In this document: positions 5,897 to 17,574 of the stretch, piece by piece
Layout: each line of letters opens with the position of its first letter
How positions within the stretch are numbered: the first letter of the stretch is position 1
Origin: Flavobacterium microcysteis
GTDB lineage: Bacteria; Bacteroidota; Bacteroidia; Flavobacteriales; Flavobacteriaceae
DNA: 64,000 nt
Direction of reading: 5' to 3'
NCBI RefSeq assembly: GCF_006385255.1
Contig: NZ_VFJE01000050.1
Location: 186,001 to 250,000 of the forward strand
Made by a program: the position numbers and the translations under genes
The notes under the pieces: model-generated
Told to the model about the DNA's origin: nothing
The model's input: the letters and a program-made list of their open reading frames with translations, nothing else
The model's database searches: none

Positions 5897-6796
5897 TTAA
5901 GGATTTGTCTTTTTCTTTCTTCTTCGAATTAGTATCCAGATAATAATTCCTGCAACTATAATCGTCCAGATATTGACGAAGAAGATAATGATCTCTTCCA
6001 AAATATGCCATCCCGTTTTCAGACCATCCATAATCCTAACGCCAATGCTTGTTCTGGATTCTTCATTTTCAGGATTAGCAATTACCTCTTTTTTGAACTC
6101 TTCCCTTTGGTAAAGAGATAAGCTCAGGGTACTGAAATTTACCTGGTCTTTCAGAGAAAGATTTGACAATTTGGCCTCGTCAGATTGCGTTTGACTGTCG
6201 TGTAATCTGTCTTCAGCATCAAGTGTCTCACCTAATTTTTTGCCACGATTCGTTATTGCATCCTCAACTCGTTTTTGATTGTCCTGATTTCTTTTTTGTG
6301 AAAGGTCATTTGACAACAATTTTAAGGAAACATCATCTGCTTTTATAACCCTAAAATCCAAATAGTCGATTTGTCGGGCGATGGTTTTTAAAGTAGTATC
6401 CAATAGCGTATTTGGAACACGAATAATCATGTTGTTCTCCACAACAAAACGAGTCGTTTCAACTAACGAGTCGTTGCTTATTTTTGCTGTTGAGGTATTG
6501 ACAATATTGCTTCTCAATTCGGTTGAAGTTACAAAACCTCCAAATTTTGCAACTGTATTTTCAATGGCATAAGTTGATTTTGCTACGTTTTTAACTTTGA
6601 ATCTCAAATCAGCCGTACGGATAAATTTCCGGTTAGAGTTTTTATCTACGACAGCAGCTGATGATGAAACCATTGGAGCTTCATTTGAAACAGCAGTTTC
6701 TGCTGCGGCATCTTCGGAATAGGCTTCACGCCCTTCGTTTTGTTTACAAGAAAAAAAACAAGCAGATACTAGAAGAAGATAAACGACTTTTTTCAT
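5897..6796 (-). CDS. DUF4349 domain lipoprotein with C-terminal membrane anchor
   Basis: A 299-residue protein with a lipoprotein signal (lipobox FFSC, Cys17). A DUF4349-like core runs from about residue 55 to 235, including RTADLRFKVKNVAKSTYAIE, a coiled-coil-prone charged middle, and NLSLKDQVNFSTLSLSLYQ. A C-terminal transmembrane helix (about 265-290) ends in a RRRKKK stop-transfer tail. The core of this family is thought to lie outside the cytoplasm; its function is unknown. Having both a lipobox and a C-terminal helix would tether it at both ends. It converges with the glycosyltransferase across 14 bases. Confidence 0.85.
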   Translation of the reverse strand: MKKVVYLLLVSACFFSCKQNEGREAYSEDAAAETAVSNEAPMVSSSAAVVDKNSNRKFIRTADLRFKVKNVAKSTYAIENTVAKFGGFVTSTELRSNIVNTSTAKISNDSLVETTRFVVENNMIIRVPNTLLDTTLKTIARQIDYLDFRVIKADDVSLKLLSNDLSQKRNQDNQKRVEDAITNRGKKLGETLDAEDRLHDSQTQSDEAKLSNLSLKDQVNFSTLSLSLYQREEFKKEVIANPENEESRTSIGVRIMDGLKTGWHILEEIIIFFVNIWTIIVAGIIIWILIRRRKKKTNP

Positions 6797-6944: not shown

Positions 6945-7307
6945 ATGACCATTCAGGCAAATCCACTCGGATTACATCAATTACTCACACTTCATGTAGA
7001 AGATCATAAAAAACTTATTCAAGTAGAAGAGTTTGTAGGTTTTACAGAAACATTGCTTAAAAAATATAACCTGGAAAAAGTCGGGATTGCTTCGCATGTT
7101 TTTGATAATAAAAGCTATACAGTATCTTTTTGTCTGATGGAGTCCCATATCTGTATCCATACCTGGCCAGAAAACAAGAATTTGGCTCTGGATATTTATC
7201 TGTGTAATTATTCGCAAGACAATACGGAAAAGGTTAGGCAATTGGCCCAGGAATACATTGCTTTTTTTGGAGCCAAAATTTTAAAACAAGTTGAAATAGA
7301 TAGGTAA
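6945..7307 (+). CDS. speD: S-adenosylmethionine decarboxylase proenzyme, prokaryotic class
   Basis: A 120-residue pyruvoyl-dependent enzyme that makes decarboxylated SAM, the aminopropyl donor for spermidine-type synthesis. The self-cleavage motif is ESHICIHTWPE, giving Glu66-Ser67 as the processing site, with His72 and Cys87 downstream. The spacing equals that of the Thermotoga enzyme (Ser63, His68, Cys83). I start it at the ATG at 6945; a longer frame from a TTG at 6908 adds an unlikely hydrophobic extension. It is the first gene of a seven-gene overlapping operon and its TAA overlaps the next ATG (TAATG). No ornithine, arginine or carboxynorspermidine decarboxylase is in the window. Confidence 0.93.
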   Translation: MTIQANPLGLHQLLTLHVEDHKKLIQVEEFVGFTETLLKKYNLEKVGIASHVFDNKSYTVSFCLMESHICIHTWPENKNLALDIYLCNYSQDNTEKVRQLAQEYIAFFGAKILKQVEIDR

Positions 7308-8530
7308 TGCATATAGCTTGTAAAAAATGCGGTACAACTACATCAATCGAAAGCAGTTTCGAAGTCAAATACTTTGGCTGTCCTAATTGCAGGAGCTTGT
7401 TTGAAATCAAGGAGGAATTAACCTTTGTTAAAGAATTCGATTCCAAGCCGTTGAATCCTATACTGAAAATAGGAAGTAAAGGCATTATTGAAGGAGATGA
7501 ATATGAAATCATCAGCATGTTCATCAAAAAATTTCATGCCATTCATTATTGGAGAGAATATACACTAAAATCAAAAGACGATCACTATTTATATCTGTCA
7601 GAATCAGAAGGACATTGGATTCTGCTTGAAGAAATTCAGGATAAGTTCGATGCCTCCAGAAAATTTAAGAGGCTGACATATAATAATGTGACCTACGATT
7701 TATATGAAAATACGCATTGCAGGGTTGAATCGGCCTATGGTTTTTTTGATGCTGAAATACCTAAGTCGGAAATACAAATCATAGAATACATAAAGCCTCC
7801 TTATATCGTTTCGATTGAAAAATTAGGAAAAGAAGAAAAGACATATCTAGGAAGGCACATTAGCAGAAGGGAATTAAAAAAGGCATTTGGTAATCCGGAG
7901 TTACCGGGAAAATTTGGTGTCGGATCGGTGCAGCCATTCCTTTTTAGTTTTTATAATGTGGCTATCATTTTTTGCTGTACGGCCATTCTTATTTTACTAA
8001 CACAGCTGTTCGTGAATAATAGTAGGAGCGAAACCGAAGTGTTTTCAAAAACCTTTTCATTTACAGAATACAATAATAAGGACTTTGTTTCGGAGTCATT
8101 TACTTTAGAAGGAGGTTCTGCGCCGCTGTCTGTCCTTATCCATTCTGAGGTAGATAATTCATGGGCCAATGCGCAGGTCACATTGGTTAATGAAAAAACG
8201 AATGAGGAAGAATCTGCCAGTCAGGATATTGAATATTATCACGGAAATACTGATGGCGAAAATTGGAGTGAAGGAGACAGAAGCGAAGAATTTAATATTT
8301 GTGGTGTAGGAGAGGGAAAATACCATCTGGTCATCACACCTCAAAAGCAACCTGACGATACTTTAAATGATCGTATAACAGTCAAAGCAGTATGGAAAAG
8401 CCCGTCAATGTGGAATTTCTTTATTTCGATATTGGTTATGGGAATTATTTTGGGCATCATCTTTTTTGCAAATAAAAGCTTTGAAACCACCCGATGGAGC
8501 ACTAGCGATTTTTCACCTTTTAATGAATAG
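7307..8530 (+). CDS. DUF4178 domain membrane protein with zinc-ribbon N-terminus
   Basis: A 407-residue protein. Residues 1-30 form a zinc ribbon (Cys5, Cys8, Cys25, Cys28). A DUF4178-like domain follows at about 45-185, with LKIGSKGIIEGDEYEI, the WREYTL element and the late IKPPYIVSIE element typical of the family. A transmembrane helix lies near 210-230 and another near 368-388. Between them is a ~135-residue beta-rich domain predicted outside the cytoplasm. Its function is unknown. DUF4178 genes commonly travel with DUF350 and spermidine synthase genes, as here. It is translationally coupled to speD by a one-base overlap. The two-helix, split-domain layout suggests a trans-membrane adaptor, but that is inference. 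Confidence 0.88.
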   Translation: MHIACKKCGTTTSIESSFEVKYFGCPNCRSLFEIKEELTFVKEFDSKPLNPILKIGSKGIIEGDEYEIISMFIKKFHAIHYWREYTLKSKDDHYLYLSESEGHWILLEEIQDKFDASRKFKRLTYNNVTYDLYENTHCRVESAYGFFDAEIPKSEIQIIEYIKPPYIVSIEKLGKEEKTYLGRHISRRELKKAFGNPELPGKFGVGSVQPFLFSFYNVAIIFCCTAILILLTQLFVNNSRSETEVFSKTFSFTEYNNKDFVSESFTLEGGSAPLSVLIHSEVDNSWANAQVTLVNEKTNEEESASQDIEYYHGNTDGENWSEGDRSEEFNICGVGEGKYHLVITPQKQPDDTLNDRITVKAVWKSPSMWNFFISILVMGIILGIIFFANKSFETTRWSTSDFSPFNE

Positions 8531-8535
8531 AAATT

Positions 8536-8727
8536 ATGGATATTTATTCGATAAAAAATTTTATTGCAAACAACAAATGGCCAGTCCTGGCGGGGATTTT
8601 GGTTTATGGACTTTTCTTGTTTTTTACTATTTCAGGAAATAAGATTTGTGATTGCGCATCAACAGAAAAATACGGTTCAAATAATAATAATGGGCGTGTT
8701 GGAGTAGCACGTTTTTACCATAAATAA
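8536..8727 (+). CDS. 63-residue single-span membrane protein of the polyamine operon
   Basis: I do not recognise a family. A hydrophobic helix spans about residues 15-33 (WPVLAGILVYGLFLFFTIS). The tail is short and polar with two close cysteines (CDC), an Asn/Gly-rich linker and the ending RVGVARFYHK. It starts 5 bases after the DUF4178 stop and is 11 bases before the DUF350 start, so it is firmly inside the operon. The compact tail with a C-terminal lysine could be a substrate, a regulatory peptide or an assembly factor for the neighbouring aminopropyltransferase. All of these are inference. Confidence 0.72.
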   Translation: MDIYSIKNFIANNKWPVLAGILVYGLFLFFTISGNKICDCASTEKYGSNNNNGRVGVARFYHK

Positions 8728-8738
8728 AACAAAAAACT

Positions 8739-8954
8739 ATGGAACATATATTAGTAAAAGGGATTATCAATTCGCTCATTTTCTCAGGAGTAGGAATATT
8801 TGTTTTGATTGTTGGCTATCTGCTGCTTGAAAAAATGACTCCTGAAAATACATGGAAAGAAATTGTCAATAACAAAAATGTAGCTTTGGCCATTGTATTT
8901 GGAGCTTTCATTATTGGAATCTCAATCATTATTAGCGCTGCAATTCATGGCTAA
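8739..8954 (+). CDS. DUF350 family membrane protein
   Basis: A 71-residue protein with two transmembrane helices (about 8-30 and 46-68), resembling half of the DUF350/YjfL membrane family, which often has two such units. E. coli YjfL lies in an operon with a PspA homologue and a glutathionylspermidine synthase-like protein, so the family has a recorded link to polyamine-related genes. Its last 8 bases overlap the start of the downstream spermidine synthase (ATGGCTAA), showing translational coupling. Its molecular role is unknown. Confidence 0.82.
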   Translation: MEHILVKGIINSLIFSGVGIFVLIVGYLLLEKMTPENTWKEIVNNKNVALAIVFGAFIIGISIIISAAIHG

Positions 8955-10464
8955 AAACTTTTTGAAGTTTGAATACCTGCTACTTTTTGCAGTTTTTATT
9001 ATTGCTACTTGCGGATTGATTTATGAATTGGTTGCCGGAACTTTGGCAAGCTATCTTCTTGGCGATTCCGTTAAGCAGTTCTCATTTATTATTGGAGTCT
9101 ACCTGTTCTCGATGGGAATAGGCTCCTATTTTGCAAAATTTGTCAAAAAGAATCAGCTCAATACCTTCGTAGAAATAGAGATTCTGGTTGGAGTTATTGG
9201 AGGACTGAGTTCTGTTATTCTGTTTATTCTCTTTGAAAAAGTCGATTATTTCCAGTTTATACTCTACCTGCTGGTTTTTGTAACAGGATGCCTGGTAGGT
9301 TTGGAAATTCCCCTTTTGATGAACATTCTCAAAGAAAAGGTAAAATTCAGTGACCTTGTTTCAAATGTTTTTACATTCGATTATATCGGAGCATTGTTGG
9401 CTTCTGTTTTATTTCCACTAATATTAGTGCCAAAACTTGGGGTCATGAAAACCTCGCTTTTCTTTGGGATGATAAATGTTTCTGTAGCCATACTCCTATG
9501 TTTCCTATTGTCAAAAGAATTAAAACGGCCAATATTATTGAAGCTGAAAGCTGTTGGAGCCTTTGTGCTTTTGCTTTTGACTTTCTTTTTCTCAGACCAG
9601 ATTCTGTCCTATTCTGAGCAGAAACTCTATGGAGAAAATATTATTTTTACGAAAGCGACACAATACCAGAGAATTGTCCTGACACATACCAAAAACGATT
9701 ATAAATTGTACCTGAATAATAATTTGCAGTTCAGTTCGGCAGATGAATATCGGTATCATGAAGCCCTTGTCCATCCTGTTATGGCCAATGCAAAAAAGAT
9801 TGAAAACATTCTGGTTTTAGGTGGAGGTGACGGACTTGCTGTCAGGGAGATTTTAAAATACAAAGAAGTCAAAAAGATTACACTGGTAGATTTAGATGAA
9901 GGGATGACTACGCTTTTTGCTACCAATACCATCTTAACAAAATTCAATGACAATTCACTGACCAATCCTAAGGTCAAGGTCATCAACAGAGATGCGTTTC
10001 TGTGGGTAAAAGAAGAAAACAACCAATATGATGCAATCATTATTGACTTTCCAGACCCGTCGAATTACAGTTTAGGAAAGCTGTATTCGCTGAATTTTTA
10101 TAAGTCATTAAAGAAAATTGTAACTCCTGAAGCCGCAATCGTAATCCAGACAACATCACCATATTTTGCGCCTAAGTCTTTTTGGTGTATTAATAATACG
10201 GTCAATGAAGTTTTTCCAAATGCAGATGCCTATCATGTTTATGTGCCGTCTTTTGGAGAATGGGGCTATACCATCGCTTCCAATAACAATACGGCAGACT
10301 TTAGTAAAGTAAATCGGAAAGTCGGCGGATTGAAATATTATGACTACCAGTACAAGAAATTAAATTTCTTTCCTAAAGACATGAAGGCAAAAGATTTAGA
10401 GATTAATAGGTTAGACAATCAAATTTTAGTGAGGTATTTTGATGAAGAATGGGGAAAACTATAG
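8947..10464 (+). CDS. speE: Membrane-integrated spermidine synthase-like aminopropyltransferase
   Basis: A 505-residue fusion. Residues 1-215 hold about seven transmembrane helices; residues 235-505 form a spermidine synthase domain. That domain carries the substrate-side YLNNNLQFSSADEYRYHEAL region, the cofactor loop LVLGGGDG at about 290-296 and the catalytic-region IIDFPDPSNYSLGKLYS near 365-381. It should transfer aminopropyl groups from decarboxylated SAM, supplied by speD in the same operon. I start at the ATG at 8947, overlapping the DUF350 stop. The long membrane domain is unlike soluble SpeE and places the reaction at the inner membrane, perhaps on an unusual acceptor. The acceptor cannot be read from sequence. 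Confidence 0.9.
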   Translation: MAKNFLKFEYLLLFAVFIIATCGLIYELVAGTLASYLLGDSVKQFSFIIGVYLFSMGIGSYFAKFVKKNQLNTFVEIEILVGVIGGLSSVILFILFEKVDYFQFILYLLVFVTGCLVGLEIPLLMNILKEKVKFSDLVSNVFTFDYIGALLASVLFPLILVPKLGVMKTSLFFGMINVSVAILLCFLLSKELKRPILLKLKAVGAFVLLLLTFFFSDQILSYSEQKLYGENIIFTKATQYQRIVLTHTKNDYKLYLNNNLQFSSADEYRYHEALVHPVMANAKKIENILVLGGGDGLAVREILKYKEVKKITLVDLDEGMTTLFATNTILTKFNDNSLTNPKVKVINRDAFLWVKEENNQYDAIIIDFPDPSNYSLGKLYSLNFYKSLKKIVTPEAAIVIQTTSPYFAPKSFWCINNTVNEVFPNADAYHVYVPSFGEWGYTIASNNNTADFSKVNRKVGGLKYYDYQYKKLNFFPKDMKAKDLEINRLDNQILVRYFDEEWGKL

Positions 10465-12079
10465 TCCAAGATCTAGGAGAACATTCCTGAAGTCGATTTC
10501 TGCAGGAATCATTCTTGCATCCGTTCCTGCTTTTTTGATTGCCTGCAAAGAAAAAGCAATCAATATTGCAATCCGACTTTCCGGAACGAATCATATTTTA
10601 GGGCATAGACTTAGAACTAAAAACTTTCCGAAAATCTCTAAAACAATTGAAATTCCTTACCTTATCATAGGTGGTGGAATTTCAGGGCTCTCCGCCGGAA
10701 GGCAACTTATGAAAAAAGGGATTGAAGATTTTCTGATTTTAGAATTAGAAGCTGAGGTTGGTGGAAATTCAAGAAATAGAGAAAATAAATATTCAAAATA
10801 CCCTTTAGGAGCCCACTATTTGCCCTTACCCAATATTCAGGATAAAGAACTAGTACAGTTTTTAGAAGAAGCCAAAATTATTACAGGTTATAAGGATGGA
10901 TTTCCTGTTTTTGATGAAGAACAGCTGACCTTTATGCCACAGGAAAGGTTGTTTATTAAAAATACCTGGCAGGAAAGTCTGGTGCCAAAATTTGGCATCT
11001 CAAAAACATCGGAAGCCGATTTCAACAGGTTTTTCGAAATCATGTCAGATTTTAGAAATAAAAAAGGAGAAGATGGAATTTTTATTTTTGATATTCCTCT
11101 AGCCGCTATATCCAAAGACGGTAAGTACGATTTTTTGGATAAAATTTCCATGAAAGAATGGCTTGTGCAAAACAAATTTCTATCAGAAGAACTCTATCAA
11201 TATGTGAATTATTGCTGCCGGGATGATTTTGGATTGGGTGTTGACTTTATTTCAGCCTGGGCCGGAATTCACTATTTTGCTGCTCGCAAACACAATGCGA
11301 CAAAAGAAAAGACTGAAAATGTATTGACATGGCCGGAAGGAAATTCCAGATTGACGAAACACTTAAAAGAATACTCAAAAAATAAGATAGTAGCAAACCA
11401 TTTGGTTTATGAAGTTGGAATTAAAGGAGAAGGCGTAATTGTCAATGTTTATGACAATTTAAAAAATGAATCAATCGCCATCAATGCCCAAAAAGTAATT
11501 CTTGCAACACCTCAATTTATCAATGGCTATTTGCTTCCTGAAAGAACTCCTATTGCCAAAGAATTTCATTATGCTCCGTGGCTATTGGCTACTTTGACAG
11601 TTACAGATTTAGATGACAATAATAGCTATCCTTTATGTTGGGACAATGTCATCTATGGTGCTAAAGGATTGGGATATATTTACAATCAGCATGAATCCTT
11701 AGGACAGATTCAAGAGAAAAAAGTAATTACCTATTATTACAGCTTTTCAACAAATGATTTGAAAAAATCAAGAAAAGAACTCTTGACAAAGGAGGAAGAT
11801 TATTGGAAACAATTGATTATTGACGATCTAAAAATAGCACATCCCGACATTGAAAATGTCGTACAAGAAATTGATATCCAAAGAATAGGACACGGAATGA
11901 TTAGCCCTGTTCCTGGCTTTTTATTTGGAAAAGCAAGAGTTGAAGCGTCGCATGCGATTGACAATAAAGTCTTTTTTGCCCATAGCGATTTGTCCGGAAT
12001 CTCAATTTTTGAAGAAGCTTTTCACCAAGGAATTAATGCAGTAAATAAGATGCTCAATGAAACAGCCTTGGATAAATAA
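10442..12079 (+). CDS. Tat-exported lipoprotein FAD-dependent amine oxidase-like protein
   Basis: A 545-residue flavoprotein. The N-terminus has a twin-arginine motif (SRRTFLK, residues 11-17), a hydrophobic core and a lipobox (LIAC, Cys35), so it is predicted to be exported folded with FAD and lipid-anchored. The dinucleotide-binding fold is LIIGGGISGLSAG (74-86), followed by the ELEAEVGGNSR element typical of flavin amine oxidases and protoporphyrinogen oxidase-like enzymes, and a C-terminal FAD-contact segment (SGISIFEEAFHQG). The ATG at 10442 overlaps the spermidine synthase gene by 23 bases. Context suggests oxidation of a polyamine or polyamine-modified product outside the cytoplasm. 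The substrate is inferred, not shown. Confidence 0.85.
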   Translation: MKNGENYSPRSRRTFLKSISAGIILASVPAFLIACKEKAINIAIRLSGTNHILGHRLRTKNFPKISKTIEIPYLIIGGGISGLSAGRQLMKKGIEDFLILELEAEVGGNSRNRENKYSKYPLGAHYLPLPNIQDKELVQFLEEAKIITGYKDGFPVFDEEQLTFMPQERLFIKNTWQESLVPKFGISKTSEADFNRFFEIMSDFRNKKGEDGIFIFDIPLAAISKDGKYDFLDKISMKEWLVQNKFLSEELYQYVNYCCRDDFGLGVDFISAWAGIHYFAARKHNATKEKTENVLTWPEGNSRLTKHLKEYSKNKIVANHLVYEVGIKGEGVIVNVYDNLKNESIAINAQKVILATPQFINGYLLPERTPIAKEFHYAPWLLATLTVTDLDDNNSYPLCWDNVIYGAKGLGYIYNQHESLGQIQEKKVITYYYSFSTNDLKKSRKELLTKEEDYWKQLIIDDLKIAHPDIENVVQEIDIQRIGHGMISPVPGFLFGKARVEASHAIDNKVFFAHSDLSGISIFEEAFHQGINAVNKMLNETALDK

Positions 12080-13073
12080 ACCAAAGACAGACATTGCCTT
12101 TATCCTTTTTCCTCAGTTTTTTGTACTGGGCATTGTGTTTTTTTGCCAAGACTTTTTAAAAGAAGCACAAGAAAACCACTCGTTTTTTACATGGCTGCTG
12201 TTGATTGTATTTATTGATGTAGCCCATGTATATTCTACATTATTTAAAACCTATTTCGTAAAAGAAGAATTTGAAAAACGGAAAAAACTCTTGCTTTTAC
12301 TTCCGCTGTTCTGTTTTTTGATAGGTTTCCTATTATTCTTGTTTGGAGCCAAGACTTTTTGGTCGGTTTTGGCCTATGTAGCCGTATTTCACTTTATCCG
12401 CCAGCAATACGGATTCATGCGGCTTTATTCCCGCATGGAAATCAAGACCAAATGGACCGTGTTTTTAGACAATCTATTCATTTATACAGCAACGGGCTAT
12501 CCAATGATTTTTTGGTTTATGAACCCGTCCAGAAAATTCACATGGTTTGTGGAAGATGAATTTATCTCATACCAAAATCCATTATTGCTGGAGTTTTTCA
12601 CATGGACTTATTATTCGATATTGGCGTTTTATGTTTTGAGAACCATTTACTTTTCCATAAAAACAAGATATTTTAACCTGCCTAAAAATGCCATCATCAT
12701 GGGAACATTCTTGTCCTGGTATTTTGGAATCGTATATTTCAATAACGACTTAATATTTACATTGCTGAATGTCGTTTCTCACGGAATTCCATACATGGCA
12801 TTGATTTATTTTAATCAAAAAAACAACGATCACTCTTTTCAGATACCAAAGCTCTCTAGCTTTCTGGGCATTTTAGTTTACATCGGAATTTTGCTTTTGT
12901 TTGCTTTTACAGAAGAATATCTTTGGGAAATTCTAGTTTGGAATGAACACTTCAGTTTCAGTGAGGGTATAGACTCCCTTGTCAAATGGCAAATACTTCT
13001 GGTTCCGTTATTGACGGTTCCTCAGTTCACACATTATATTCTGGATGGTTATATCTGGAAATCCAAGAAATAA
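12057..13073 (+). CDS. Polytopic membrane protein with conserved-looking histidines
   Basis: A 338-residue protein with about eight transmembrane helices that I cannot place in a named family. Histidines sit near helix ends in motif-like settings: DVAHVYSTLFKTYF (His57), FHFIRQQYGF (His112), VVSHGIPY (His242) and FTHYILDGYIWK (His326). This is reminiscent of metal-binding membrane oxygenases or desaturases, but the classic desaturase HxxxH boxes are absent. Its start overlaps the upstream oxidase gene by 23 bases, and a terminator follows, so it is the last gene of the polyamine operon. A membrane redox partner or lipid-acting enzyme is a possibility; nothing proves it. Confidence 0.78.
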   Translation: MKQPWINKPKTDIAFILFPQFFVLGIVFFCQDFLKEAQENHSFFTWLLLIVFIDVAHVYSTLFKTYFVKEEFEKRKKLLLLLPLFCFLIGFLLFLFGAKTFWSVLAYVAVFHFIRQQYGFMRLYSRMEIKTKWTVFLDNLFIYTATGYPMIFWFMNPSRKFTWFVEDEFISYQNPLLLEFFTWTYYSILAFYVLRTIYFSIKTRYFNLPKNAIIMGTFLSWYFGIVYFNNDLIFTLLNVVSHGIPYMALIYFNQKNNDHSFQIPKLSSFLGILVYIGILLLFAFTEEYLWEILVWNEHFSFSEGIDSLVKWQILLVPLLTVPQFTHYILDGYIWKSKK

Positions 13074-14293: not shown

Positions 14294-14629
14294 ATGAAAA
14301 ACTCCCAATTGTATAAAGGAAGTCTTAATACCATAATAATGAAATTGTTAGGTGAAAACGGACGTATGTACGGTTATGAAATCACACAAAAAGTGAAAGA
14401 GATAACTAAAGGCGAGCTGAATATTACTGAAGGTGCACTTTATCCGGCATTGCATAAACTGGAAGCAGAAGGCCTGCTGGATGTCGAAATTGAGAAAGTA
14501 GACAACCGTCTCCGGAAATATTATAAGCTGACAGAAAACGGACAAACTGAAACGGTAAATCGACTGGCCGAACTAGAAGAATTTATAAAAAACATGCAAA
14601 GCATAGTCAATCCTAAATTGAGTTATTAA
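14294..14629 (+). CDS. PadR family transcriptional regulator
   Basis: A 111-residue winged-helix regulator. Features are the N-terminal GSLNTIIMKLL helix, YGYEITQKVKE, the recognition-helix region ITEGALYPALHKLEAEGLL, a wing with RKYYKLTENG, and a C-terminal dimerisation helix (VNRLAELEEFIKNM). PadR proteins usually repress genes for export or stress, often their own operon. It is the first gene of an operon with two accessory membrane proteins, an ABC-2 permease and an ATPase, an arrangement typical of PadR-controlled exporters. It is 1 base from the next gene. Confidence 0.93.
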   Translation: MKNSQLYKGSLNTIIMKLLGENGRMYGYEITQKVKEITKGELNITEGALYPALHKLEAEGLLDVEIEKVDNRLRKYYKLTENGQTETVNRLAELEEFIKNMQSIVNPKLSY

Positions 14630-14630
14630 A

Positions 14631-15305
14631 ATGAAATTAGATAAAAATCAGATAGATACAATCGATACGGTTTTAGAAAAACTGGGTGTCGTTTATATTG
14701 ATTACAAGTATGAAATCCTTGACCATATTGCTACGGAAGTAGAAGAAAAAATGATACTCAATGACATCACTTTTGAAGAAGCTTTTCCGGCCGTATTAAA
14801 AAAATGGCAACCAAAATTTAAGAAATCATCCAGTGCATTGTTTGGTTATTTCTGGGAAATGCCAGAGATTTTGCTCAATAAATGCATCAAAATGTATAGA
14901 AAAAAACTGCTCTTCATAATTACAGGAGCTATGGTTTTAACTTCTGGATTCTTGCTGTTTTCTTCTTTTTTGGGAAACCACCTGGCTGGTTTTTTTAGCA
15001 TTGCTACGATTTTGTATAGTGTGGCCCTCTTATTGTCGGCTATAGGATATATCAGGATTCGGTTATCGAAAAGAAAAACATCGTATGGTTTTTTATTTAA
15101 ACAGCAATTTATTGGTTGTTCCTTAGTAGCTTCACAGCAGCTTTACTATATGAACAGTGGTTTTGAAAGCAAGCATTCTTCATCACTTTTCAGCTATCTT
15201 ATAATTTTTACCTTATGCATCTACTTTCTCTTTTCTGTTTATAACCTGATTTATTACAGAGCCCATTTTTATGAGTTAAAAAGAATGAGATTTTTAGAAG
15301 CATAA
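14631..15305 (+). CDS. PadR-operon membrane accessory protein, paralogue 1
   Basis: A 224-residue protein with a soluble N-terminal helical domain of about 75 residues (LDKNQIDTIDTVLEKL, then YEILDHIATEVEEKM) and about four transmembrane helices from residue 95 on. The N-terminal domain is recognisably related to that of the next gene, so the pair arose by duplication. The E-[IL]-x-DH-[IL]-A element recalls small domains fused to PadR-linked permeases. The function is unknown, but its place between the PadR gene and the ABC genes suggests a part in signalling or assembly of that exporter. Confidence 0.8.
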   Translation: MKLDKNQIDTIDTVLEKLGVVYIDYKYEILDHIATEVEEKMILNDITFEEAFPAVLKKWQPKFKKSSSALFGYFWEMPEILLNKCIKMYRKKLLFIITGAMVLTSGFLLFSSFLGNHLAGFFSIATILYSVALLLSAIGYIRIRLSKRKTSYGFLFKQQFIGCSLVASQQLYYMNSGFESKHSSSLFSYLIIFTLCIYFLFSVYNLIYYRAHFYELKRMRFLEA

Positions 15306-15348
15306 AGCATTTGTTATCTAAATAGTAAAGACAGAAAAACCCTTTTCT

Positions 15349-16047
15349 ATGAAATTAAATGAACAGCAAATAAGCCAATTATACCAATTCACACGCCAGC
15401 ATTTTGTAGAATGGTACGACCTGCAATCAGAGTTGGTAGACCATTTGGCGAATTCAATTGAAGACAGATGGAAAGAAAATCCTAAGTTGTCCTTTGAAGA
15501 AGCACTGCAGCTGGAATTTAAGAAATTCGGAATCTTCGGATTTATGGATGTAATTGATGAACGCCGCCGATTTCTATCTAAAAAATACGGCAGGATAATC
15601 TGGAAATACTACAAGGAATTTTTCAGGCTGCCTAAAATTATCCTGACTGTTTCCGCAATGTATGTTTTATATTTTCTTTCAGAAAAATTGCAAGATACTC
15701 AATTCCTGTACCTCACTATTTTGGCCATTATTGGTATTGTATTCACTATCGAAATCCGCAAGATCCATAAGACTCAAAAACTGAAAGAAAAAGAAACAGG
15801 GAAAAAATGGTTTTTTGAGCAAACAGTTGATGCTTTTAATGTTTATCCTATGACGTTTTTGCCCATGCAATTGCTTAATCTATCCATAACAATTGGTGAA
15901 GATGGATGGAACAAAGCAATAGCTATTTTGGGTGCTATATTATTGGTATTGTTTGCATTACTACAATATGTGCATTGGAAAATCGTATACCCAAAAATCA
16001 CGCAAGAAATGGGCAGTATCTATCCGGAGTACGAAATATCAAAATAA
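15349..16047 (+). CDS. PadR-operon membrane accessory protein, paralogue 2
   Basis: A 232-residue paralogue of the preceding gene. It starts MKLNEQQISQLYQF, has the matching YDLQSELVDHLANSIEDRW helix near residues 24-42, and about four transmembrane helices, then a polar C-terminal tail. The charged loop near residue 145 is rich in lysine. It is separated from its paralogue by 43 bases and from the permease by 54 bases. No enzymatic motif is visible. Retaining two diverged copies suggests that they may form a heterodimer or have distinct partners in the exporter, which is inference. Confidence 0.8.
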   Translation: MKLNEQQISQLYQFTRQHFVEWYDLQSELVDHLANSIEDRWKENPKLSFEEALQLEFKKFGIFGFMDVIDERRRFLSKKYGRIIWKYYKEFFRLPKIILTVSAMYVLYFLSEKLQDTQFLYLTILAIIGIVFTIEIRKIHKTQKLKEKETGKKWFFEQTVDAFNVYPMTFLPMQLLNLSITIGEDGWNKAIAILGAILLVLFALLQYVHWKIVYPKITQEMGSIYPEYEISK

Positions 16048-16101
16048 GCTGTAACGTTTGTAATGATTGCACTACTAATTCTCAAAACCCAACCATAAAC
16101 T

Positions 16102-17574
16102 ATGTTTAAAAAATTTATTATGTTGGAATGGAAGGCTTTTTTCCGTTCCGCTTCTTTCAGGACTAATCTTGCCTTAAAAATATTAATGATTTTTGTGGCC
16201 ATTTATTTCACCGTGATTTTCCTTGCTATGGGAATCGGTGTGTTTTTCCTTATCAAAAAAGAAATGGATCTTGACCCTTTGATTGTTGTCAATAGGTTTA
16301 TGATTTATTATTTTCTTTTTGATCTGATGATGCGACTTTTTCTTCAGAAGATTCCTGTAATGAATATTCGCCCGTTACTCACGTTACCAATTAAGAAATC
16401 AACGATTGTAAATTTTGCTTTAGGCAAAACGATGCTGTCGTTTTTTAATATTGTGCATTGTTTTTTCTTTGTGCCTTTTTCTATAGTTCTTCTTATCCAG
16501 GGATATGATGTTACAAGTGTTATCCTTTGGCATATTGGAATGTGGTCTTTGGTCTATGTAAATAACTTCCTTAATATATTGCTGAACAATAAAGATTACT
16601 TGTTTTTCATCTTTATCGTGCTTGTACTAGGTTTAGGAACCATGCAGTATTATGACTTGTTTGATGTGACGGACTACACTTCCGTTTTCTATCAGGGTTT
16701 ATTTGATACAAAATATCTATTCCTCGTGCCGGTTGTGGTACTGATTGCCTTGTATGCGATTACCTACAATTACTTTATGAAGAACCTGCACTTAGATACA
16801 GGACTTTCATCAAAACACAGTATTGCCAAAACAGAACAGTTTACATGGCTTGACCAATTCGGAACTGTTGGTACGTTCCTTAAAAACGACATACGATTGA
16901 TCAAACGTAACAAGCGTTCAAAGACTACAATCTTTATGAGTGTCCTGTTTCTTTTCTATGGACTGCTTTTCTTTGCAAGCGGAATAGAATCGTATGACAA
17001 TCCAATGATGCATATGTTTGCCGGGATTTTTGTGACAGGTGGTTTTTTGTTCACTTTTGGACAATTCGTACCAAGCTGGGACAGTGCTTATTATCCGCTA
17101 ATGATGACACAAAATATTCCTTATAAAGGATATCTCAATTCAAAATGGTGGTTGATTGTTATTGCTACCGCCATTTCAACTGTTGTAGCTTCATTTTACC
17201 TCTATTTCGGATTGGAAATATATCTGATTATTGTTGTAGGTGCGGTTTATAATATTGGTGTAAACTCCCACTTGGTATTGCTTGGAGGTGCTTACACAAA
17301 AACTCCGGTTGACTTGAATTCAACCAAAGGAGCTTTTGGAGACAAAAAAGCATTTAACCTAAAAACAATGCTAATCTCATTGCCAAAACTGCTATTGCCT
17401 GTGATTATTTATGGATTAGGTTATTACCTGATCAACCCGATGACCGGATTGGCTTTGGTTGCTTTAGCAGGAGTTCTTGGCTTTGCTCTAAGAAATAAAG
17501 TTTTTACGTGGATTGAGAAAATCTATAAGGCAGAGAAATACAAAACACTGGACGCCTACAAGCAAAAAGGATAA
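16102..17574 (+). CDS. ABC-2 type permease, DUF5687-like
   Basis: A 490-residue integral membrane protein with about twelve hydrophobic segments. It starts FKKFIMLEWKAFFRSASFR, a pattern I associate with the flavobacterial ABC-2-like family DUF5687. Large soluble stretches are absent, and a cytoplasmic segment in the middle (FLKNDIRLIKRNKRSKTT) is typical of the second half of ABC-2 permeases. It lies 34 bases upstream of the ATPase, which together with the PadR gene and two accessory proteins gives a complete regulated exporter. The substrate is unknown; lipids, peptides or antimicrobials are common for such PadR-linked systems. Confidence 0.85.
   Translation: MFKKFIMLEWKAFFRSASFRTNLALKILMIFVAIYFTVIFLAMGIGVFFLIKKEMDLDPLIVVNRFMIYYFLFDLMMRLFLQKIPVMNIRPLLTLPIKKSTIVNFALGKTMLSFFNIVHCFFFVPFSIVLLIQGYDVTSVILWHIGMWSLVYVNNFLNILLNNKDYLFFIFIVLVLGLGTMQYYDLFDVTDYTSVFYQGLFDTKYLFLVPVVVLIALYAITYNYFMKNLHLDTGLSSKHSIAKTEQFTWLDQFGTVGTFLKNDIRLIKRNKRSKTTIFMSVLFLFYGLLFFASGIESYDNPMMHMFAGIFVTGGFLFTFGQFVPSWDSAYYPLMMTQNIPYKGYLNSKWWLIVIATAISTVVASFYLYFGLEIYLIIVVGAVYNIGVNSHLVLLGGAYTKTPVDLNSTKGAFGDKKAFNLKTMLISLPKLLLPVIIYGLGYYLINPMTGLALVALAGVLGFALRNKVFTWIEKIYKAEKYKTLDAYKQKG

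Follow-up and report, generated by a model that had tools for sequence, protein, structure and literature searches.

The question of what the widespread membrane-fused spermidine synthases act on is raised by a tightly packed operon of seven same-strand genes in Flavobacterium microcysteis, located at positions 6945–13073 (+) of the 64,000-nucleotide stretch analysed here (contig NZ_VFJE01000050.1, positions 186,001–250,000; hereafter the window). The operon encodes, in order, an S-adenosylmethionine (AdoMet) decarboxylase (SpeD), a DUF4178 protein, a 63-residue protein, a DUF350 protein, a membrane-fused spermidine synthase (TM-SpeE), a flavin adenine dinucleotide (FAD)-dependent amine-oxidase-like protein and a polytopic protein (gene 7). 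The most informative member is the 63-residue protein, which invariably terminates in a His-Lys pair and so provides a specific candidate residue for the acceptor: TM-SpeE would aminopropylate the terminal Lys of this small exported membrane peptide, with the oxidase acting on the product, a reading drawn from sequence comparison to which we assign a probability of roughly 0.55. The original prediction for this locus had placed the 63-residue protein in the operon, listed by its length only, and had missed its invariant end.

The 63-residue protein (8536–8727, +), the proposed aminopropyl acceptor, comprises one hydrophobic membrane helix followed by a tail, which in the window copy ends Arg-Phe-Tyr-His-Lys, with the codons of the invariant pair at 8719–8724 (+). 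Across 75 homologues detected with a profile (74 loci), the tail spans 23–40 residues and is rich in Gly, Ser, Thr, Arg, Tyr, Asn and His, with positions −5 to −12 variable (2.5–3.1 bits) and positions −1 and −2 invariant; every one of the 75 terminates in His-Lys, preceded by Phe-Tyr in 47. Aligned homologues have a mean column identity of 23%, yet the final two residues are invariant in 42/42. The terminal codons are mixed (His CAT 38, CAC 37; Lys AAA 70, AAG 5) and the gap from the stop codon to the next start codon varies among homologues; because the His codon and this distance vary, selection acts on the protein, and an overlapping-gene effect as the cause of the end is ruled out by the same variation together with the stop codon preceding DUF350. 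In two profile-negative loci, L116 and L144, the protein is shorter and its end reads HHK and SHK, respectively; in three others (L047, L103 and L141) the separate gene is missing and the DUF4178 protein carries an extra C-terminal helix and tail that ends SHK, NHK and GHK, respectively. The His-Lys end is thus found in 79/79 complete oxidase operons (L046–L049 and L066–L145), five further operons cut by contig ends (L071, L109, L123, L125 and L145) being left out of this count.

The profile was built from His-Lys-ended proteins and could favour them, and a census of genes in the gap, together with the fused and short cases, serves as a check. In this census the His-Lys protein ranked first in 62 of the 68 loci having a hydrophobic candidate; among the other six it ranked second in L077, L078, L086, L129 and L137 and was absent from the list of L143, where it was found by the profile. 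Loci with no candidate above the hydrophobicity cut were settled from profile matches and from reading of the profile-negative loci. Against a background of greedy open reading frame (ORF) calls, as distinct from annotated genes, a His-Lys end occurs in 1/876 other ORFs of at least 100 residues in the same loci and a Lys end in 154/876; in the remaining loci, with family and tail proteins removed, the corresponding values are 0/279 and 26/279 (Lys end 37/343 before removal).

The enzyme encoded two genes downstream of this peptide, TM-SpeE (8947–10464, +; ATG at 8947), is a seven-helix domain fused to an aminopropyltransferase domain. It matches the NCBIfam polyamine aminopropyltransferase model NF002956 at 648 bits (cut-off 472) and Pfam Spermine_synth at 134.7 bits (cut-off 22.9), and it superposes on 1uir with a Z-score of 34.6 and a root-mean-square deviation (rmsd) of 1.9 over 269 aligned residues. 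The motifs DExxYHE, GGG[DE]G and DxxDP, associated with catalysis and with decarboxylated AdoMet (dcSAM), are intact in 88/88 TM-SpeE sequences; TM-SpeE has the SpeE aminopropyltransferase fold with an intact site. Assignment to a defence system was rejected, the PADLOC mad2 match of TM-SpeE (53.6 bits, 4e-15) spanning just residues 279–424 in the transferase domain; the oxidase gave a weak desaturase-like match (8e-4) and the other five operon proteins gave none in PADLOC.

The aminopropyl donor would be supplied by SpeD (6945–7307, +; ATG at 6945), which scores above the cut-off of Pfam AdoMet_dc (PF02675; 64.7 bits, cut-off 25) and lies below that of TIGR03330 (59.1 vs 75.65). Residues E65, S66, H71 and C86 (numbered without the initial Met) are present, including the pyruvoyl site Glu-Ser-His; we take Glu-Ser to direct self-processing and His and Cys to be catalytic, and on these residues the protein is a class 1b AdoMet decarboxylase. 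The catalytic Cys of the window copy is shared by 40 of 80 operon SpeDs, with Ser in 37 and 3 not read, and the decarboxylation chemistry of the Ser-type proteins may differ. By reading, the Ser-for-Cys proteins fall mostly outside Flavobacteriia.

The FAD protein (10442–12079, +; ATG at 10442, overlapping the TM-SpeE gene by 23 bases) matches the flavin amine oxidase family (Amino_oxidase, PF01593; 40.3 bits, cut-off 19.8; residues 81–359), and its matches to solved amine oxidases cover a short N-terminal stretch (polyamine oxidase FMS1, E 3.4e-8). Reading of its start reveals a twin-arginine motif together with a lipobox Cys, in support of the earlier proposal that the oxidase is exported; an RRx[hydrophobic] motif is present in 64/84 oxidases, motif and lipobox by a stricter pattern in 56/84, and Chryseobacterium and several other oxidases carry Arg-Lys variants of the motif. 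The substrate site of flavin amine oxidases features a conserved Lys and an aromatic cage; the oxidase alignment (n=53) has no Lys in its invariant or nearly invariant columns. An apparent TM-SpeE–oxidase fusion in Burkholderia (L149), a 1028-residue ORF, was dismissed as a frame artefact of GC-rich DNA, the oxidase having its own Arg-Arg/lipobox start.

Further TM-SpeE operons were drawn from the oxidase-lacking loci of a Bacteroidota survey, from plasmids (7 of 13 matches read, with L153, a partial match, not counted) and from genomes selected by their proximity to three relatives not belonging to the main set; L185, cut by a contig end, was likewise not counted. Where the oxidase is present, Lys is the last residue of the exported tail in 10/10, and the end is His-Lys in 6/10 (L148, L149, L183, L184, L189 and L191), the oxidase of L194 being a fragment (193 bits) at a contig end; where no oxidase is adjacent and a tail was found (n=17), the end is Lys in 15 (L052–L056, L150–L152, L186–L188, L190 and L195–L197). 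For the most part, the oxidase accompanies tails in which His precedes the final Lys. In operons without an adjacent oxidase the tail is carried by a one-helix protein, or by a larger lipoprotein or one-helix protein, the lipoproteins being about 240–250 residues long; six of these tail lipoproteins align, with RSRSGGFGK-like ends (GGFGK or similar). The remaining two of the 17, L050 and L051, end YGG and each carries a homologue of the GSP_synth ATP-grasp family (273.5 and 255.8 bits), bringing together TM-SpeE, speD, a Gly-Gly-ended tail protein and the ATP-grasp homologue. This family was found only in these two of 112 loci (L046–L056, L066–L145, L147–L152 and L183–L197) when their ORFs were searched using the protein of L051 and YgiC of E. 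coli as queries, and both modification chemistries may be combined in one system there. In E. coli, YgiB ends SMGG and YjfM ends HWGG, each beside an annotated peptide-spermidine ligase, and YgiB has weak similarity to the L051 tail (pairwise E 2e-4). Glutathionylspermidine synthetase couples spermidine to a C-terminal Gly, and a Gly-Gly substrate therefore fits the ligase; with a Lys end beside the aminopropyltransferase alone and a Gly-Gly end beside the amide ligase, the end of the tail follows the enzyme.

Topology bears on where such chemistry could take place. The hydrophobicity profile of TM-SpeE has seven hydrophobic segments before the transferase domain, of which the second is weakest, and the AlphaFold2 model (mean predicted local distance difference test score 87.1, predicted template modelling score 0.72) has long helices followed by the transferase fold. 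The Lys and Arg content of the N-terminus together with loops 2–3, 4–5 and 6–7 exceeds that of the other loops in 53/53 and in 12/12 sequences; an inside N-terminus with seven crossings would therefore put the catalytic domain outside. The 63-residue proteins are more positive before the helix in 67/75 and equal in 7, a bias that would likewise place the tail outside. Transferase domain, tail and oxidase are all predicted on the same outer side of the membrane, where they would be able to meet.

Combining these elements, the operon would make, and then oxidise, a polyamine-like modification on the C-terminal Lys of an exported membrane peptide. SpeD, whose active-site residues are intact, would generate dcSAM in the cytoplasm; the 63-residue protein would be held in the membrane by its one helix, with the flexible tail outside according to the charge rule; and TM-SpeE would use dcSAM to aminopropylate the terminal Lys at its side-chain amine, this residue being a plausible acceptor in that its four-carbon aminoalkyl arm resembles putrescine. 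The weakest step is the passage of dcSAM across the membrane, which might proceed via the seven-helix domain or DUF350, after which the exported FAD protein would oxidise the new amine, with DUF4178 and gene 7 in putative accessory roles. Gly-Gly tails with an ATP-grasp ligase homologue, and Lys tails, could represent two ways to polyamine-cap envelope proteins. The boldest form of this proposal, requiring jointly an extracytoplasmic hypusine-like modification, access of dcSAM to an outward-facing TM-SpeE domain, conversion of Lys to N6-(3-aminopropyl)lysine, subsequent action of an oxidase exported by twin-arginine translocation (Tat) and a parallel Gly-Gly/ligase route, is offered tentatively, at somewhat less than even odds. 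The broader idea of the original prediction, that dcSAM is used at the membrane on an acceptor other than putrescine, is the likelier reading here too, and is essentially an idea already published and not new.

Across the genome (4.06 Mb, 56 contigs) there is a single AdoMet decarboxylase and a single SpeE homologue, TM-SpeE itself. Whole-genome searches at E≤0.001 found no PspA (PF04012), the operon being without the PspA of PspA-type envelope stress operons, no member of the glutathionylspermidine-synthase family (GSP_synth, PF03738), and no nspC; the lack of PspA and of an ATP-grasp enzyme, first remarked in the operon, thus extends to the whole genome.

TM-SpeE could alternatively make a free polyamine, spermidine or a relative, with the Lys-ended peptide acting as regulator, adaptor or pseudo-substrate and the oxidase degrading the excess outside. 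The intact aminopropyltransferase motifs are consistent with this, as is the failure to detect nspC, and the status of TM-SpeE as the sole SpeE homologue leaves room for free spermidine and so counts against the Lys-acceptor proposal; however, free putrescine and dcSAM are cytoplasmic whereas the transferase domain is predicted outside, the Gly-Gly end at ATP-grasp ligase loci would be left unexplained, and fusions of this kind are reported (Li 2019) to have given no spermidine and to have failed to complement. We regard a free product as rather improbable. A rival of greater weight, though still unlikely, is that the acceptor is a lipid, peptidoglycan or another protein and that the C-terminal signal of the small peptide only assembles the complex; conserved C-terminal residues can act as binding signals, no role is assigned to DUF4178, DUF350 or gene 7, and the two Gly-Gly loci also carry TM-SpeE. 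A terminal Lys on carriers as unlike as one-helix peptides, a DUF4178 fusion and lipoproteins nevertheless fits a substrate better than a docking tag, and the same can be said of a Gly-Gly end accompanied by a ligase. The least probable of the alternatives retains the tail Lys as acceptor but has the cytoplasm as the site of modification, with export afterwards; TM-SpeE would then cross the membrane six times, contrary to the topology call. In the TM-SpeE model helices 5 and 6 run together (residues 134–187) and, taken as one span, would therefore leave the transferase domain inside, where dcSAM is located and where the ATP-grasp ligases must likewise act on tails later exported; yet residues 134–187 comprise two hydrophobic segments divided by Pro and Lys, and in 53/53 sequences the alternating charges agree with seven crossings.

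Other observations also weigh against a modified terminal Lys. Invariant ends are not unique to the 63-residue protein, SpeD ending in Arg in 74/74 homologues of the operon loci and DUF350 in Gly in 66/75; what stands out is that the end is invariant while the rest of the tail varies, SpeD and DUF350 being conserved throughout, and an overlap effect may account for the DUF350 end, whose ...IHG holds the speE ATG in the window. Four oxidase-bearing loci are exceptions to His-Lys (L147, ending HGK, and the close kin L192, L193 and L194, ending GGK), L189 nearly duplicates L144, and L190, the sole His-Lys end among the 17 operons without an adjacent oxidase, has its oxidase elsewhere in the genome. 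Gly-Gly loci carry TM-SpeE too, and a Lys tail is therefore not strictly needed by this enzyme. The tail types fit the tree with few changes (HK two, xK three, GG one; L123 and L125, with tails cut off, assumed HK; L194 labelled xK; fragment L188 dropped), and few independent events therefore lie behind the tail pattern. Tails outside the main set were hand-picked as hydrophobic or signal-bearing ORFs beside DUF350 or speE, those of L149 and L190 coming from a search for Lys- or His-Lys-ended ORFs. The strict Arg-Arg motif is absent in 20/84 oxidases, the putative oxidase substrate is unproven because the Pfam match covers only part of the protein, and we know of no precedent for dcSAM outside the cytoplasm.

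Conservation of the operon was assessed by an oxidase-alignment scan of 84,980 species, which returned at least 572 relatives, with locus counts resting on the best 80. TM-SpeE adjoins the oxidase in 80/80 of these loci, and the exact order speD, DUF4178, 63-residue protein, DUF350, speE, oxidase, gene 7 is kept in 51/80; in the remaining 29 a gene is missing, duplicated, moved or undetected, or the locus is cut by a contig end. Among 198 Bacteroidota genomes, full-length TM-SpeE (matches spanning the query) is present in 12; the oxidase (E≤1e-60) was detected in 5 genomes, each of them one of these 12. The seven-gene unit is real and not accidental: the coupling of genes asserted in the original prediction is upheld by this comparison of gene order, in place of the scattered genes or missing co-occurrence that it had named as contrary evidence, and in the window its seven-gene layout, with coordinates and overlaps of 1, 8, 23 and 23 bases, was reproduced, as were, in the family scans, its labels for speD, DUF4178, DUF350, spermidine synthase and the FAD protein. 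Most hosts of the best 80 loci are labelled Flavobacterium, Chryseobacterium, Chitinophaga, Hymenobacter, Spirosoma, Mucilaginibacter or other Bacteroidota, and a few metagenome-assembled genomes (MAGs) carry the labels Verrucomicrobiota, Akkermansia, Deltaproteobacteria and Nitrospirae; distribution is patchy within the genus of the window, with TM-SpeE in 2/10 listed genomes, the window included. In L123, a MAG labelled Akkermansia muciniphila, a label that is possibly wrong, speD lies downstream of the oxidase.

Of the candidate accessory proteins, gene 7 (12057–13073, +; overlapping the oxidase gene by 23 bases) shares with the 63-residue protein the absence of any match in Pfam or NCBIfam scans. 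Its D54, H57, H112, R115, Q116 and H242 are invariant, H326 and D330 nearly so, and its confident structure model (90.6) distributes conserved Asp, His and Arg over four helices, which suggests a metal or cofactor site. Identification as a known enzyme was attempted and rejected, with no sequence match in Pfam, NCBIfam or the PDB and no fold match (Foldseek best E 2.6; best Z-score 4.9, to 6m31, rmsd 4.2 over 120 aligned residues), an absence of match that does not show a new fold. Relatives occur in 14/198 Bacteroidota genomes, four strong and all in oxidase operons and ten weak, eight of which were read in context and none found beside TM-SpeE. Distant relatives (L057–L064, about 23–27% identity), a membrane family, keep most of the His, Asp and Arg columns, and their scanned neighbours are housekeeping genes: purF/serA (L057), porV (L060) and lptG (L062). 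No Pfam match was obtained for three distant relatives and two kin, and no NCBIfam match for two distant ones.

The DUF4178 protein (7307–8530, +; 41.2 bits, cut-off 25), whose gene is overlapped by speD by 1 base, reads as a CxxC zinc-ribbon-like N-terminus, DUF4178, a membrane helix, an ectodomain and a second membrane helix. A second, shorter DUF4178 protein (about 205–250 residues) precedes the main one in L107, L112, L115, L117, L136 and L144, an arrangement also seen in L148, L150, L189, L190, L192 and L194; an SPFH gene is annotated in L148, with a look-alike by reading in L149. The DUF350 protein (8739–8954, +; 55.9 bits, cut-off 26), overlapped by the TM-SpeE gene by 8 bases, reads as a single two-helix unit. 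In the TM-SpeE operon of L056 an ion-channel gene (L056:6508–7302; PF00520, 134 bits) directly follows speD. Flanking the operon in the window are a divergent DUF4349 lipoprotein-like gene (5897–6796, −) and, downstream (14294–17574, +), genes reading as a PadR-like regulator, a pair of HAAS-like membrane proteins and a large permease-like protein.

Among known systems, the proposed chemistry resembles that of deoxyhypusine on eIF5A, where an aminobutyl group from spermidine is placed on a protein Lys in the cytosol, followed by oxidation chemistry. Both would attach a polyamine arm to Lys and then oxidise, the proposal differing in that dcSAM would donate an aminopropyl group to an envelope peptide; we know of no homology between the eIF5A system and the operon. 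A fusion of a major facilitator superfamily domain with spermidine synthase (MFS-SpdSyn), accompanied by AdoMet decarboxylase and DUF350, has reportedly been proposed to act on a non-polyamine acceptor, the acceptor being left open. SpeD, a membrane SpeE and DUF350 are shared with that system (Li 2019), whereas here a candidate acceptor residue is named.

The E. coli YgiBC/YjfMC systems (annotated peptide-spermidine ligases; Pederick 2023) resemble the operon in having an exported tail protein beside a polyamine-peptide enzyme, with YjfL a DUF350 protein, and differ in pairing an ATP-grasp ligase with a Gly-Gly tail, where the operon pairs an aminopropyltransferase with a Lys tail and has no GSP_synth. 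Close in gene content are the operons of Ravi 2024 (PMC11237479), which combine TM-spermine synthase, DUF350, DUF4178 and a lipoprotein with PspA, have variants carrying AdoMet decarboxylase and polyamine oxidase, and are accompanied by a proposal, citing Li 2019, that other substrates are aminopropylated. A membrane domain with a spermine-synthase domain, DUF350, DUF4178 and an exported partner are common to both, whereas the window operon is without PspA, has as partner a 63-residue His-Lys peptide and adds gene 7; C-termini and gene 7 go unmentioned in the passages of Ravi 2024 consulted. The kind of operon and the idea of a non-polyamine acceptor are thus already known, and the terminal-Lys acceptor seems new, being unnamed in the open-licence literature searched. 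If correct, the proposal would describe a new protein modification and would have dcSAM used beyond the cytoplasm; these operons would then share one logic with the peptide-spermidine systems YgiBC/YjfMC of E. coli and with envelope stress genes.

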